A stretch of 64,000 nucleotides of DNA from Ruania albidiflava DSM 18029 (GTDB lineage: Bacteria > Actinomycetota > Actinomycetes > Actinomycetales > Beutenbergiaceae): contig NZ_ATWL01000006.1 of the NCBI RefSeq assembly GCF_000421225.1, positions 1 through 64,000 of the forward strand, read 5' to 3'. The notes under the pieces were generated by a model. The model worked only from the letters and a program-made list of their open reading frames with translations. It was not told the DNA's origin and made no database searches. Shown piece by piece: positions 4,583 through 47,675 of this stretch; position 1 is the stretch's first letter, and the number at the start of each line of letters is the position of its first letter. The translations under genes and the position numbers were made by a program.

Positions 4583-6444
4583 TTCTGCTCATCCTCGTCC
4601 ACGATCTCGGCGTCCACGATGTCCTCGTCCTCGGAGCTCGCGCCAGCGGCAGGCGCCTCCTGACCAGCGGCCCCGTCCGCGGACGGCGTCTCCTGCTGGG
4701 CGTAGAGCGCCTGACCGATCTTCTGGCTCGCCGCGGACAGCTCGGCCTGAGCAGTCTTCACCGCCTCGATGTCCTCGCCCTCCAGCGCGGTCTTCACCTT
4801 GTCGACGGCGGAACGCACCTCGGTCGCGACGTCCTCGGGGAGCTTGTCGGCGTTGTCGGTGAGCAGCTTCTCTGTGGAGTAGGCCAGCTGCTCGGCCGAG
4901 TTGCGGGTGTCCTGCTCCTCCCGGCGCTTGGCGTCCTCGGCGGCGTGCGCCTCGGCCTCCTTGACCATCCGGTCGATCTCCTCCTGCGGCAGGGCGGAGC
5001 CACCGGTGATGGTCATCGACTGCTCCTGACCGGTGCCGCGGTCCTTGGCGGACACGTGCACGATGCCGTTGGCGTCGATGTCGAAGGTCACCTCGATCTG
5101 CGGCATGCCGCGCGGCGCGGGGGCGATCCCGGTCAGCTCGAAGGTGCCCAGCGGCTTGTTGTCGCGGGCGAACTCCCGCTCACCCTGGAACACCTGGATG
5201 AGCACGCTCGGCTGGTTGTCCTCCGCAGTGGAGAACACCTCGGAGCGCTTGGTCGGGATAGCGGTGTTGCGCTCGATGAGCTTGGTCATCACCCCGCCCT
5301 TGGTCTCGATGCCCAGGGACAGCGGGGTGACGTCGATGAGCAGCACGTCGGTGCGCTCACCGCCCAGCACACCGGCCTGCAGCGCGGCACCGACGGCCAC
5401 GACCTCGTCCGGGTTCACACCCTTGTTCGGCTCCTTGCCGCCGGTCAGCTCCTTGACCACCTCGGTGACGGCGGGCATCCGGGTGGAGCCACCGACGAGC
5501 ACCACGTGGTCGATGTCCGAGATGGCGATCCCGGCGTCCTTGATCACGTTGTGGAACGGGGTCTTGGTGCGGTCCAGCAGGTCCGAGGTCATCTGCTCGA
5601 ACTGGGCGCGGGTGAGGCGCTCGTCCAGGTGGATGGGCCCGTTCTCGGACATGGACAGGTACTGCAGGGAGATGTTCGTGGAGGTCGCGCTGGAGAGCTC
5701 CTTCTTCGCCTGCTCGGCCGCCTCACGCAGCCGCTGCAGGGCGATCTTGTCCTTGGACAGGTCCACGCCGTTGGCGTTCTTCACCTGGGTGACCAGCCAG
5801 TCGACGACCCGCTGGTCCCAGTCGTCCCCACCGAGGCGGTTGTCACCGTTGGTGGCGCGCACCTGGATGGTGGAGAAGTCGTCCTCGTCCTTGCCCACCT
5901 CGAGCAGGGAGACGTCGAAGGTACCGCCACCGAGGTCGAAGACCAGGATGAGCTCGTCCTCCTTGCCCTTCTCCAGCCCGTAGGCGAGGGCGGCGGCGGT
6001 GGGCTCGTTGATGATGCGGGAGACGTCCAGCCCGGCGATCTGCCCGGCCTCCTTGGTCGCCTGCCGCTCAGCGTCGTTGAAGTAGGCGGGCACGGTGATG
6101 ACCGCTTCGGTGACCGGCTCGCCCAGGTAGGACTCGGCGTCCTTCTTCAGCTTGCCCAGGATGCGCGCGGAGATCTCCTGCGCGGTGTAGGTCTTGTCGT
6201 CGATCTCGGTCTTCCAGTCGGTGCCCATGTGGCGCTTGACCGAGGAGATGGTGCGGTCGACGTTGGTGACGGCCTGACGCTTGGCCACCTCACCGACGAG
6301 CACCTCACCGGTCTTGCTGAACGCCACGACCGACGGTGTGGTGCGAGCGCCTTCGGCGTTCGCAATGACAGTGGGTTCGCCACCCTCGAGGACGGTCACC
6401 ACGGAGTTCGTGGTACCCAGGTCGATTCCGACCGCTCGTGCCAT
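4579..6444 (-). CDS. dnaK: Hsp70 chaperone DnaK
   Basis: 621 residues, normal length. It begins [16 protein letters not shown] (phosphate-1 loop), then [33 protein letters not shown], the [17 protein letters not shown] ATPase motifs, [13 protein letters not shown], the interdomain linker [16 protein letters not shown], the substrate-binding domain, and an acidic C-terminus ending [12 protein letters not shown]. An in-frame extension to 6507 exists but has no homology. The ATG at 6444 has an AAGGAG about ten bases upstream. First gene of the dnaK-grpE-dnaJ-hspR operon; its 5' region holds two HAIR-type inverted repeats. Confidence 0.98.
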
Positions 6445-6491
6445 GGTCTGTTGCTCCTTCCGCGCCGCCGGATCTCGACGACACTGCTGTG

Positions 6492-6512
6492 GATGAGTCT
6501 GCCGCACTCAAG
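6492..6512. promoter_or_regulatory. HAIR-type HspR operator, proximal copy
   Basis: Inverted repeat with 7-base half sites gATGAGT / ACTCAAG separated by seven bases (ctgccgc). The HAIR consensus is CTTGAGT-N7-ACTCAAG; one half is perfect and the other matches 5 of 7. It lies 48 bases upstream of the dnaK ATG, where HspR repression is expected. Confidence 0.75.
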
Positions 6513-6554
6513 TTTGCGCGCCCCGGTCCAGATCTCCAAATCGGGAGGCCAGAA

Positions 6555-6575
6555 CTTGAGTCTGTGTGGCTCAAC
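6555..6575. promoter_or_regulatory. HAIR-type HspR operator, distal copy
   Basis: CTTGAGT (perfect half site) - N7 - gCTCAAc (5 of 7). Centre-to-centre distance to the proximal HAIR is 63 bases, about six helical turns, so two HspR dimers could bind the same DNA face. Located between dnaK and the divergent TIGR02569 kinase gene. Confidence 0.75.
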
Positions 6576-6660
6576 TATGAGGCGGGCGGATGTATTCCCG
6601 AGGTGCTGCCGCGGTGGTTCCGGGTCGGCGGGCTGGGCTTGGCCGCGCGCCCTGCACGCC

Positions 6661-6710
6661 GCTGGCGCGGAAGATCACTGGTGCCCTAGCCGCAGCAGAC
6701 TTCCACGCGA
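6661..6710 (+). repeat. 50-bp direct repeat, copy 1 (upstream of TIGR02569 gene)
   Basis: 44 of 50 bases match the segment 7551-7600, in the same orientation. The core ggaagatcactggtgcc is invariant, as is cagcagacttcc. Within each copy GGAAG...CTGG can pair with CCAG...CTTCC, giving a weak hairpin. The 3' end of this copy overlaps the probable -35 region of the downstream gene. Confidence 0.75.
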
Positions 6711-6722
6711 ACCAGTACTCAG

Positions 6723-6728
6723 TAGTCT
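6723..6728 (+). promoter_or_regulatory. Probable -10 box of a leaderless promoter for the TIGR02569 gene
   Basis: TAGTCT lies six bases before the ATG at 6735, with TTCCAC 16 bases further upstream as a possible -35. No Shine-Dalgarno is visible, so a leaderless transcript is likely. The promoter assignment is inference from spacing only. Confidence 0.4.
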
Positions 6729-6734
6729 GGGCTG

Positions 6735-7541
6735 ATGCTGCACCGGCCGCCCGACAACGTAGTCCGCGCGTTCGGAGCCGACCCGGACCAGCTCCTCCGG
6801 CTGCCGGGCGGTCAGGGCACCTCCTGGCGTGCCGGCGACCTGGTGCTCAAGCCCGGCGAAGCGCCCCTGCAGCGCTGGCTCAGCAGCACGCTCCGCGAGC
6901 TCGAACCGGCCGGGCTGCGGCTGGCGGTCCCGGTCGCCGCTGCCGGGGGCGCCTGGTCAGTGGCTGGCTGGACCGCTACCTCGTTCGTCGACGGCCAGGA
7001 GCCCGATCTGCGCCGACCCACCTCCTGGCCGAAGATCGTGGCGGCCGGGCGTCTCTTCCACCACGCGCTCGCCGACGCCCCGCGCCCCGCCCTGCTCGAC
7101 TCCCGCACCGACCCATGGGCGGTCGCCGACCGGGTCGCGTGGGGCGAGCAGCACGCGCAGTTCCATCCAGCCTTCGACGAAATCGCCGGCCGGTTGCGCG
7201 CCCAACCGGACCCGCCCGGTCCGGCTCAGCTGGTGCACGGCGACCTCACCGGCAACGTGCTCCTGGCGCCTGGTCTGGCACCGGCAGTGATCGACGTGTC
7301 GCCCTACTGGCGCCCGGCCCTCTGGGCGGAGGCGGTGGTGGTCGCCGATGCGCTCTGCTTCCATGGCGCGGACGCCGCAGCGCTCCCAGCGGCTGGGGTC
7401 GCGGTACCGGACGTCGCCCGTGCGCTGCTGTTCCGGCTCGCAACCACCAACGCGTTCCTCGCCGCGGGCCGCACCGACATCGACGCGGCGGCCGAGGCCC
7501 GCCGGTTCACCTGTGCCGCCGCCGAGATCGGCATCAGCTAG
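6735..7541 (+). CDS. TIGR02569 family kinase-fold protein
   Basis: 268 residues, matching the actinobacterial TIGR02569 family, which has an aminoglycoside-phosphotransferase fold. It starts PPDNVVRAFGADPDQLLRLPGGQGTSWRAGDLVLKP, with the nucleotide-loop equivalent GGQGTSW and the catalytic-loop motif VHGDLTGNVLL (about 170), followed by PAVIDVSPYWRP. The catalytic loop HGDLTGN is one residue shorter than the HGDxxxxN of aminoglycoside kinases, as is typical of this family. Substrate is unknown, and the evidence does not support antibiotic resistance. The gene is divergent from dnaK and lies exactly between two copies of a 50-bp direct repeat. Confidence 0.85.
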   Translation: MLHRPPDNVVRAFGADPDQLLRLPGGQGTSWRAGDLVLKPGEAPLQRWLSSTLRELEPAGLRLAVPVAAAGGAWSVAGWTATSFVDGQEPDLRRPTSWPKIVAAGRLFHHALADAPRPALLDSRTDPWAVADRVAWGEQHAQFHPAFDEIAGRLRAQPDPPGPAQLVHGDLTGNVLLAPGLAPAVIDVSPYWRPALWAEAVVVADALCFHGADAAALPAAGVAVPDVARALLFRLATTNAFLAAGRTDIDAAAEARRFTCAAAEIGIS

Positions 7542-7550
7542 GCCCGACTC

Positions 7551-7600
7551 GCTGGTGTGGAAGATCACTGGTGCCATAGCCCCAGCAGACTTCCGCGCGG
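7551..7600 (+). repeat. 50-bp direct repeat, copy 2 (downstream of TIGR02569 gene)
   Basis: Starts ten bases after the stop of the TIGR02569 gene and matches 6661-6710 at 44 of 50 positions. It lies in the convergent gap before the DUF418 gene, where its imperfect hairpin could help end transcription. The identical element upstream of the gene argues for a dispersed or duplicated repeat instead. Confidence 0.75.
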
Positions 7601-7626
7601 GCAGCGGATCTCGGTCGGTGCTGCTG

Positions 7627-8862
7627 TCACCTCGAAGCCGTCCGGTCACGGTAGGCGAAGCGACGCAACAGGATCTCGATCGGCCCGCGGTGACCTCGGC
7701 GGTGCATCAGGCCGGCGACCAGCACGCTCGCCAACCAGATACCGATCGCGCAGCACACCGCGACCATTGCGGGAGATTCCGCGTCCCGGGCGAGGTGCAG
7801 GCCGAACGGTGCCAGCAGCACCAGCCAGGCCAGAGACTGCACCAGATAGCCGCTCAGCGAGCGCTGGCCGAGCGCCACGATCGAGCCGACGACGGCGTTC
7901 GAGCGCCACCGGTCGGCATGCCGCGACATCACCCGGCCGACCAGACCGAACAGGCAGGCATAGGCAATGCCTCCAAAGAACCCGGACATCTCGTAGACCG
8001 TCCGGGCCAGGCCTGCGGTCTCAGCGTCCAGCTCGACGAAACCGCCGGCAAGCAGCCCCATCGGCAGTGCACCGGCGATCGCGATGGTGAACCCGCCGAC
8101 CAGGCCGGTGGTCAGAAGGCGCTGGTGGCGCTCGGGCTCCTCCAGGACACGGCGACGCGCTGCCCAGGCGCCCACCCACACCATCAGCACGAACGGCAGG
8201 AAGACCAGTGTGGTCACGGGCCACTCCACCACCCGCTCGATCAGCGAGGCGCCGTAGGTCGTTGCTTCCTGGGACGGCGACGGGTCGACCGGCAGCGGGC
8301 TCGGGGCGCCAGCCCGGGCGGCGATCCCGGCGTAGGCGAGCCTTGCGAGCACGGCGACAGCCAGCCCGGCCCCGAGCACATAGATCGGCGCCGAGCGCAG
8401 GATCCAGTCGCGCACCCGGCCGCCTGGTCGCAGCAGCAGCAAGAAGGCGAGACCGACGACGCCGAACGCGCCCACGATGTCCCCGGAGAAGAGCAGCACG
8501 CCGTGCAGCGCCCCGATGACCACCATCCCCAGGTGCCTGCGGACGAGCACGCGACGCGTGGTCGGCCACGGGATGCCCGACAGCCGTTGGTGCCGCGTGA
8601 ACTGCACCAGGCCGTAGCCGAACAGCATGACGAACAACGGCAACGCGCAGGCGTGCACGAACACGATCATCACCAGCGAATAGCCGCGCGTCAGGCCCTC
8701 CGGGGCCGGGTCGAGGCCCGGCACGTTCATGTACACGAAGCCCGCGGTGTGCGCGAGCGCCACCAGCAGCAGCGCGAACCCGCGCGCCAGGTCGGGCGCG
8801 AGGATCCGCTCACCAGCCGGAACTGAGACCGGCGGTGGGGCAGTATCGACTGCCTGAGACAT
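7627..8862 (-). CDS. DUF418 domain multi-pass membrane protein (YeiB-like)
   Basis: 411 residues with about ten hydrophobic segments. It begins after a short polar head with APDLARGFALLLVALAHTAGFVY, matching the YeiB/DUF418 N-terminal D-xxRGxAll motif. The DUF418 C-terminal block is seen as VALGQRSLSGYLVQSLAWLVLL and, at the end, HRRGHRGPIEILLRRFAYRD, the characteristic GP-E-LLR ending. The molecular function of the family is unknown; some members are proposed to be transporters or acyl-group handlers. The start at 8862 is chosen because AAGGGG lies about six bases upstream. Convergent with the TIGR02569 gene. Confidence 0.88.
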   Translation of the reverse strand: MSQAVDTAPPPVSVPAGERILAPDLARGFALLLVALAHTAGFVYMNVPGLDPAPEGLTRGYSLVMIVFVHACALPLFVMLFGYGLVQFTRHQRLSGIPWPTTRRVLVRRHLGMVVIGALHGVLLFSGDIVGAFGVVGLAFLLLLRPGGRVRDWILRSAPIYVLGAGLAVAVLARLAYAGIAARAGAPSPLPVDPSPSQEATTYGASLIERVVEWPVTTLVFLPFVLMVWVGAWAARRRVLEEPERHQRLLTTGLVGGFTIAIAGALPMGLLAGGFVELDAETAGLARTVYEMSGFFGGIAYACLFGLVGRVMSRHADRWRSNAVVGSIVALGQRSLSGYLVQSLAWLVLLAPFGLHLARDAESPAMVAVCCAIGIWLASVLVAGLMHRRGHRGPIEILLRRFAYRDRTASR

Positions 8863-46249: not shown

Positions 46250-46319
46250 CCTGCCCGCCGGGGGTGTGGTTGACGTCGGTTATGGGTCGATAACCGACGT
46301 CAACCACACCCCCGGCAGG
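46250..46319. repeat. Perfect 24-bp palindrome between thiB and thiP
   Basis: Arms 46259-46282 and 46291-46314 are exact inverted copies (24 bases each) around an 8-base loop. Five more bases outside (46250-46254 and 46315-46319) pair again across a 4-base bulge on one side. Such a stem is very stable as RNA. It may trim or pause thiBP transcripts so that the binding protein is made in excess, or be an inserted palindromic element. Confidence 0.75.
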
Positions 46320-46366: not shown

Positions 46367-47461
46367 CTAGCCGATCACGGTCTGCGTCCACTGCTCGATC
46401 CACTCGTCGCGGTGGCTGTTGATGTCCTCGATGCTCACCGTGAACGGATCGTCGGCCAGCGGCGCGAACTGGGTCCAGGACTCCGGCAGGTCGATCGCCT
46501 CGTTCACCGGGTACATGAACATCTGCTCGGGGATGTCGGCCTGCACCTCGTCGGAGAGCAGGAAGTCGATGAACGCCTGCGCGCCCTCGGAGTTGTCCGC
46601 ACCGGCGAGCACCCCGGCGTACTCCACCTGCCGGAAGCAGGTGTTCAGCAGCGCCCCGGTGGGGACCTCGTCGTCGTCCTCGTCCACCTCGAAGGCCGGG
46701 GAGGTGGAGTAGGACAGCACGATCGGCCGGTCGCCCTCACCGGTGGAACCGGAGAAGTCCACCGAGTAGGCGTCCGACCAGCCGTCCACCACCTTCAGGC
46801 CGTTGTCGGCGAGCTGCTGCCAGTAGTCCACCCAGCCGTCCTCACCGTAGGCACCGACGGTGGCCAGCAGGAACGCCAGCCCGGGTGAGGAGGTGGCCGG
46901 GTTGGTCACCACCACCAGGTCCTGGTACTCCTCCTCGAGCAGGTCGTCCAGCGTCTCCGGCTCGGCCACGTCGTGCTCGGTGAACCACTCGTGGTCCACG
47001 TTCAGGCACACGTCGCCCATGTCGATCGGGGTGAGCGACCCGGCGTCGTCGGCGAGGTACTGCTCGGCGCCGGCCGGCAGGTCAGCGGAGGTGTACGGCT
47101 CGAACACACCCTCGGCGATCCCGCGACCGGCGAAGGAGTTGTCCACCCCGTAGGCCACGTCCCCGAGCGGAGAGTCCTTGGTGAGGATGAGCTGGTTCAC
47201 CAGCTCACCACCATCACCCGGGGCACTGAGCTCCACGGTGTAGCCGGTGTCGTCCTCGAAGTCTGCGACCAGGTCCTCGGACAGGGCGAAGGAGTCGTGC
47301 GTGACCACGCGCAGCACTCCCGGGTCGTCGCCGTCCTCGTCGCCACCTTCACCTGAGCTCTGGCCGATCAGCGAGCAGCCGGTCATCGCCAGCACGACGG
47401 CGGTGCCCACCATGGCCGGGACGGCTCGCCGGGACCGGGCGGTGCTTCTGGTGCAGGTCAT
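46367..47461 (-). CDS. thiB: Thiamine-binding lipoprotein (ThiB-like)
   Basis: 364 residues. Signal peptide with lipobox MTGC, Cys at residue 29, an acidic linker (GEGGDEDGDDPG), then a type II binding-protein domain: LRVVTHDSFALSEDLVADFEDDTGYTVELSAPGDGGELVNQLILTKDSPLGDVAYGVDNSFAGRG, matching ThiB/TbpA. Further: PIDMGDVCLNVDHEWF and VVTNPATSSPGLAFLLATVGAYG. The ATG at 47461 has GAGGAGG four bases upstream, in a stem that can hide it. A TPP riboswitch lies 60 bases upstream, strongly supporting thiamine or its precursor as ligand. Confidence 0.92.
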   Translation of the reverse strand: MTCTRSTARSRRAVPAMVGTAVVLAMTGCSLIGQSSGEGGDEDGDDPGVLRVVTHDSFALSEDLVADFEDDTGYTVELSAPGDGGELVNQLILTKDSPLGDVAYGVDNSFAGRGIAEGVFEPYTSADLPAGAEQYLADDAGSLTPIDMGDVCLNVDHEWFTEHDVAEPETLDDLLEEEYQDLVVVTNPATSSPGLAFLLATVGAYGEDGWVDYWQQLADNGLKVVDGWSDAYSVDFSGSTGEGDRPIVLSYSTSPAFEVDEDDDEVPTGALLNTCFRQVEYAGVLAGADNSEGAQAFIDFLLSDEVQADIPEQMFMYPVNEAIDLPESWTQFAPLADDPFTVSIEDINSHRDEWIEQWTQTVIG

Positions 47462-47489: not shown

Positions 47490-47520
47490 GGTCCGTGGAA
47501 GTTCCACGTCGAGAGGTGCT

Positions 47521-47606
47521 CGACTCCCTTCGCCGGTGCTAACCGGAGCAGGTTCGAGGGTCTGCGGTTGGCCGCACTCTCAGCGCTCGCAGGCGCTCCC
47601 CTGTCG
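47521..47606 (-). ncRNA. TPP riboswitch (THI element)
   Basis: Minus-strand RNA contains the TPP aptamer landmarks in order: an AGGGGAGC side of P1/P2, GCUGAGAGUGCGGCC (pyrimidine sensor helix with CUGAGA), CCGCAGACCCUCGAACCUG, the GGUUAGCACC P5 stem and closing GCGAAGGGAG, with short outer pairing CGAC/GUCG. Spacing and core nucleotides fit the consensus well. It precedes thiB and should repress thiamine uptake when TPP is abundant. Confidence 0.93.
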
Positions 47607-47675
47607 TCTGCCACCACGGTACACCGCGGCTCGGGCAGGAGCGAACGAAGGTGACCTGGCTCACCGGTTGCCCGC

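Follow-up and report, generated by a model that had tools for sequence, protein, structure and literature searches.

Repeats bracketing a gene at the dnaK locus of Ruania albidiflava are probably two members of a dispersed, untagged family of REP-like palindromes

Two same-orientation repeats that bracket a gene in the first 64,000 nucleotides of contig NZ_ATWL01000006.1 of Ruania albidiflava DSM 18029 (the stretch analysed here as a whole and referred to below as the window) are probably two members of a dispersed, untagged family of REP-like palindromes of about 50 bp, designated family A. A sequence-only reading of the window had suggested that the repeats could allow excision or duplication of the gene, and had offered a dispersed hairpin family as the alternative. 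It is this alternative that is supported, by 17 places in the genome of R. albidiflava (hereafter, the own genome) and by covariation of the hairpin arms across 40 copies from three species. The features observed are dispersal within one genome, hairpin geometry, covarying arms, a tendency to lie by gene 3' ends, copies kept at matching places in different species at several loci and, at one of these loci, a short gap that lacks the element in other congeners. Two covariance models were employed, R1 built from ten copies of the own genome and R2 built from 40 copies; the scores of the two window copies given below are those of members of the building sets of both models.

6662..6711, no strand assigned: family A palindrome, copy 1 (arms 6662-6684 and 6689-6711, loop 6685-6688); R1 E 7.3e-13 in the own genome, R2 55.4 bits in the window
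6735..7541, plus strand: open reading frame of the TIGR02569-like gene, 268 aa, between the copies
7552..7601, no strand assigned: family A palindrome, copy 2 (arms 7552-7574 and 7579-7601, loop 7575-7578); R1 E 1.5e-14, R2 61 bits

The repeats, first noticed at 6661-6710 and 7551-7600, are real: they agree at 44 of 50 positions, with a longest identical run of 17, and 30 is the top identity of 50-mers at other offsets of at least 60 in a scan of 6000-8400. A repeat listing places the pair at 6660-6709 and 7550-7599 with 90% identity, the similarity ending with the palindrome at 50 nt, and both repeats are themselves imperfect palindromes of about 50 bp each. The second begins ten bases past the stop of the gene, as had been stated (the stop codon ends at 7541 and the repeat starts at 7551), and the palindrome of copy 1 stops 23 bases 5' of the predicted ATG (6735). 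The exact core GGAAGATCACTGGTGCC occurs twice in the 64,000-nt window and twice in the whole own genome. When the window was scanned with R2, copies 1 and 2 alone matched better than E 0.8. Neither copy matched Rfam at the gathering threshold, and the single match at E <= 1 over 6500-7750 lies outside the repeats. The match of the bracketed gene to TIGR02569 (E 1.5e-25) reaches 90.1 bits, below the curated cut-off of 136.75, and the name is applied to the predicted protein for its resemblance only; the gene had no Pfam match at E <= 0.001 and was not found in viral contigs.

A 71-base query against the own genome returned further copies, several of them matching on both strands, and ten own-genome copies aligned without gaps into a palindrome of 50 positions with a 4-base loop. 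R1 was run at E <= 0.01 on 39 genomes (the own genome and 38 relatives) and R2 on 24 genomes of the family; about 150 first-look candidates were scored per genome, so that all copy numbers are lower bounds, and the E-values of the models are rough. By R1, family A occupies at least 17 places in the own genome of 4.2 Mb, 15 in the congener G003 and 9 in the congener G007; R2 raised the count in G003 to 16 and otherwise gave the same picture. Neither model detected the family in the five other congeners of the seven. R1 at E <= 0.01 also gave weaker matches in four other genomes. Matches in G035 and G037 were set aside, the palindromes there being built differently, and G019 and G022 had 5 and 4 places by R1 at E <= 0.01 and 2 and none by R2 at E <= 1e-4. 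Exact matches to the core in 16 stretches of genome contigs and in 1 stretch of viral contigs were taken as chance, and one-mismatch matches in six relatives have flanks in which no family palindrome was seen, four of the six looking like one common coding motif. Plasmids, queried with copy 2, and phages, queried with the copy on contig C9, gave no match. No earlier description of family A was found in the literature searched, which, given its partial coverage, is weak evidence of novelty.

Covariation was assessed in an alignment of 40 of the 42 places of the three genomes, leaving out a 52-nt copy on contig C176 of G007 and the G003 place at 3160867, found in the R2 search only. In this alignment 82.6% of cells pair, both sides are changed in 116 cells (64.7 in shuffles and 14-27 in slid structures), the covariation score is 0.308 against 0.181 for shuffles, and the symmetry extends through 23 positions per arm. 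When arms are swapped between copies within a genome, pairing falls in G003 (p < 0.0002) and in G007 (p 0.02), while within the own genome the effect is not significant (p 0.17), and the own-genome alignment of ten copies taken alone shows covariation no higher than shuffles, which counts against the REP-like reading. Part of the covariation signal is thus ascribed to differences between species. Templated correction of quasi-palindromes in replication could also produce covariation of the arms. With each copy read in the direction of its adjacent gene, G-T mismatches are as common as A-C ones (35 vs 32), so that a role of the sense-strand RNA is not favoured; the control for this comparison, eight hairpins of which at least two are apparently members of family A, was unusable.

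The genomic placement of the copies was derived with a home-made gene caller, which miscalls starts and possibly misses small genes. On these crude calls, 33 of the 40 copies are no more than 120 bp away from a predicted gene 3' end, with distances of 5-40 bp in many cases, and the copies lie between convergent (14), tandem (21) and divergent (5) genes, against 5.8%, 65.7% and 28.5%, respectively, in a crude background of possible placements in the window. Copy 1 is situated between two gene 5' ends, like four others of the 40, which counts against the preferred reading. Copies are found at the same place in all three genomes at the metallophosphoesterase locus, in the own genome and G007 at the clpC and dtd loci, and in G003 and G007 at the L125/L137 and Rce1-like loci (the names clpC, dtd, bcp and desaturase are presumed, being read from the sequences, and the other gene names have Pfam or NCBIfam support). 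Paired changes of the arms accompany this retention. At the PBP locus the G003 copy is off position relative to its two counterparts, and only partial alignment was obtained for the SRPBCC, WYL and bcp orthologue sets. Between bcp and rpiR, the own genome, G003 and G007 have a gap of 68-122 bp that contains the palindrome; the gap without it is 9 bp long in G005 and spans 30-37 bp in G001, G004 and G006, and in G002 the neighbour gene is different. The region past clpC carries a family A palindrome in the own genome and G007 and palindromic sequence of another family in G004, G005 and G006, and neither type was seen in the first 300 bases past clpC in G001, G002 and G003. A strong hairpin closely follows the clpC stop in 18 of 18 genomes (L194-L211), with a GGCCGG-rich stem common to many of them; the family A palindromes of the own genome and G007 are located farther on.

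The arms also differ between species in a concerted manner. GTG stands in both arms of all 15 aligned G003 copies, at alignment columns 10-12 and the positions paired with them, against none of the 17 own-genome copies and one of nine G007 copies (none of the eight aligned ones, plus the ninth), the G003 orthologue of that ninth copy being likewise GTG. By protein identity, G003 and G007 are the closer pair. The cleanest case is the metallophosphoesterase locus, where the flanks align on both sides and the arms differ. Replacement, gene conversion and co-evolution with a factor that binds the elements could each account for the pattern. A speculative extension, to which we give little credence at present, is that the palindromes of the genus change in concert with a putative trans-acting protein that binds or processes hairpins and is not a Y1 transposase, and that an unrelated family occupies the same position at gene ends in other congeners.

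Such a second family, family B, to which the palindromic sequence past clpC in G004, G005 and G006 belongs, consists of palindromes of about 56-60 bp that are unrelated to family A in sequence. It gave 3 matches in G002, 14 in G004, 7 in G005 and 19 in G006 (both strands, E <= 0.001) and, at the same threshold, 2 in the own genome, 1 in G007 and none in G001 and G003. Among 22 family B loci, 11 are convergent, 11 tandem and none divergent, and 4 of the 22 palindromes are irregular in form. One member falls in the window:

46257-46316: family B palindrome, 60 bases, nearly perfect, 50 bp past the predicted 3' end of the gene at 46367-47461 (minus strand)

A TPP riboswitch (window 47508-47612, minus strand, 59.6 bits) precedes the genes that surround this palindrome. 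Palindromes of a third type, unlike both A and B, are present 5' of dnaK in G004 and G006 (L189:677-721 and L187, reverse strand 754-798), and G037 contains two 104-bp direct repeats (L107:1436-1539 and 2138-2241) that are 96% identical and 702 bp apart, each with a long palindrome, and that may mark where a small element begins and ends.

Excision or duplication of the gene through the repeats is left without support. The pair is not exceptionally alike: over the palindrome its identity of 43/50 is joint second among 136 own-genome pairs, whose median is 36, and an identical run of 17 bp is short for homologous recombination. Relatives that have lost the gene and retain a single repeat, which excision had been expected to leave, are not among the seven congeners. 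All seven have dnaK, and the stretches compared around it (3.3 to 5.2 kb; 3.3 kb in G007) contain neither the gene nor a family A copy; the DUF418-like gene is likewise missing from these stretches. Homologues of the bracketed gene in G003 and G007 (47 and 49% identity) are found elsewhere, with no adjoining family A copy. Since homology upstream of dnaK stops at 6598-6606 in all seven congeners, the locus is a rearranged junction with its edge about 60 bp before the palindrome. Conservation of the dnaK-upstream region itself (window 6444-6606) extends in all seven congeners as far as about 6606 and takes in two CTTGAGT-N7-ACTCAAG-like boxes that resemble the HspR (HAIR) operator. G007 has a palindrome about 40 bp past a desaturase-like gene, and in the own genome the DUF418-like gene sits between the desaturase and copy 2; the G007 palindrome and copy 2 may represent the same site, although the two are not specially alike.

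Copies of family A are mildly clustered. In a simulation that disregards contig ends, the own genome has 3 gaps below 5 kb where 0.32 are expected (p 0.003) and 1 below 1.2 kb (p 0.075), and G003 has 1 below 1.2 kb (p 0.053), 1 below 5 kb (p 0.21) and 4 below 30 kb (p 0.033). The strongest remaining case for a cassette-like role is a second bracketed gene, AbiEi-like, which lies between two copies about 1.1 kb apart at orthologous places with the same neighbours in two congeners:

L106:1641-2788 (G003) and L105:1415-2528 (G007): AbiEi-like gene bracketed by family A palindromes

That the two window copies form a recombining bracket, by which the gene is excised, duplicated or exchanged as a cassette, nevertheless seems very unlikely. 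The clustering would suit such a bracket, as would the presence of the gene at the dnaK locus in just one of the eight genomes of the genus and the greater divergence of the AbiEi-like gene (70% identity between G003 and G007) compared with its neighbours (94-96%); it is opposed by the lack of a lone left-over repeat in any congener, the brevity of the identical run, the break of homology in front of the palindrome instead of at it, and the gene homologues that have no copy alongside. Still less credible is that the pair arose by local duplication only. The two copies are each other's nearest relatives, but 15 more copies exist elsewhere in the genome, copy 2 agrees almost as well (42/50) with a copy on contig C26, the C3 and C9 contig copies share 46/50, more than the window pair, and similarity ends at the edge of the palindrome.

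The copies might be bidirectional terminators, alike in sequence because of common descent and maintained by selection on the RNA hairpin, never having been mobile elements; we consider this rather unlikely. It is favoured by the closeness to gene 3' ends, the 14 convergent placements, the paired changes retained at orthologous places and the many strong folds, although the predicted energies of copies 1 and 2 are modest at -19 and -24 kcal/mol. Terminator function, however, needs no conservation of sequence, and family A is conserved in sequence while found at just 17 places in a genome of 4.2 Mb. Moreover, T-run terminators number 0 in 6400-7750 around the window copies (0.2 in shuffles), clpC is already followed by its separate strong hairpin, G-T mismatches are not in excess of A-C and five of the 40 copies stand between divergent genes. 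The neutrality of mismatch types with respect to strand would agree with duplex binding sites of a dyad-symmetric DNA-binding protein, as would the same species-specific sequence in both arms; yet the arms covary within copies in G003 and G007, most operators are shorter than a symmetry of 23 positions per arm, and the copies prefer gene ends to promoters, all of which makes this explanation improbable.

The REP-like reading can be set against known classes of repeats as described in PMC3733652. There, REPs are short, dispersed intergenic palindromes of heterogeneous sequence, mostly located between convergent or same-direction genes near 3' ends, and they include CGTC-tagged families that lack a dedicated transposase. 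Family A is similarly dispersed and extragenic, with the 3'-end preference given above on crude gene calls, but it differs from tagged REPs, in that account, by its 50 positions (20-40 bp in REPs) and by the 17 places found (high copy numbers in REPs). An unpaired terminal GTAG or CGTC tag was not seen in the ten-copy alignment with flanks nor in the 40 aligned copies, and, unlike the GTAG REPs with RAYT, no Y1/RAYT gene was found in the eight genus genomes. The same source names untagged REP-like families for M. tuberculosis, D. radiodurans, Bordetellae, Brucellae and Cyanobacteria; family A, with 17 intergenic places and no terminal motif, is likened to these by description. Like MITEs, which that source gives as 70-300 bp long with terminal inverted repeats of 15-30 bp, family A elements are non-coding inverted repeats near genes, but they measure about 50 bp, are palindromic throughout and have flanks that are not conserved. 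The hairpin just past many stop codons recalls intrinsic terminators, from which family A is separated by its conserved sequence, the T-run not found around the two window copies and the additional hairpin at clpC.

How the elements spread can be outlined only tentatively. PF01797 (Y1/RAYT, IS200/IS605-type) matched nothing in the eight genus genomes and was positive in G008, G037 and 5 of 14 controls; RAYT is thus not a resident mobiliser, and the failure of this search to find a mobilising enzyme counts against the REP-like reading. Under that reading, the elements would have spread in the past through a trans-acting activity, probably on single-stranded hairpin DNA, and would be tolerated or maintained near the ends of genes; there the hairpin, once transcribed, may work in either direction, weakly terminating transcription or shielding the 3' end of the mRNA. 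The gene would then be bracketed by two copies that happened to fall one gene apart, aided by mild local clustering, and not by a gene-moving device. What was suspected to be a gene-excision signal is thereby turned into a probable dispersed palindrome family in a little-studied family of actinobacteria, and may provide a small, testable case for a question raised in PMC3733652, that of what spreads or recognises untagged palindromic repeats.
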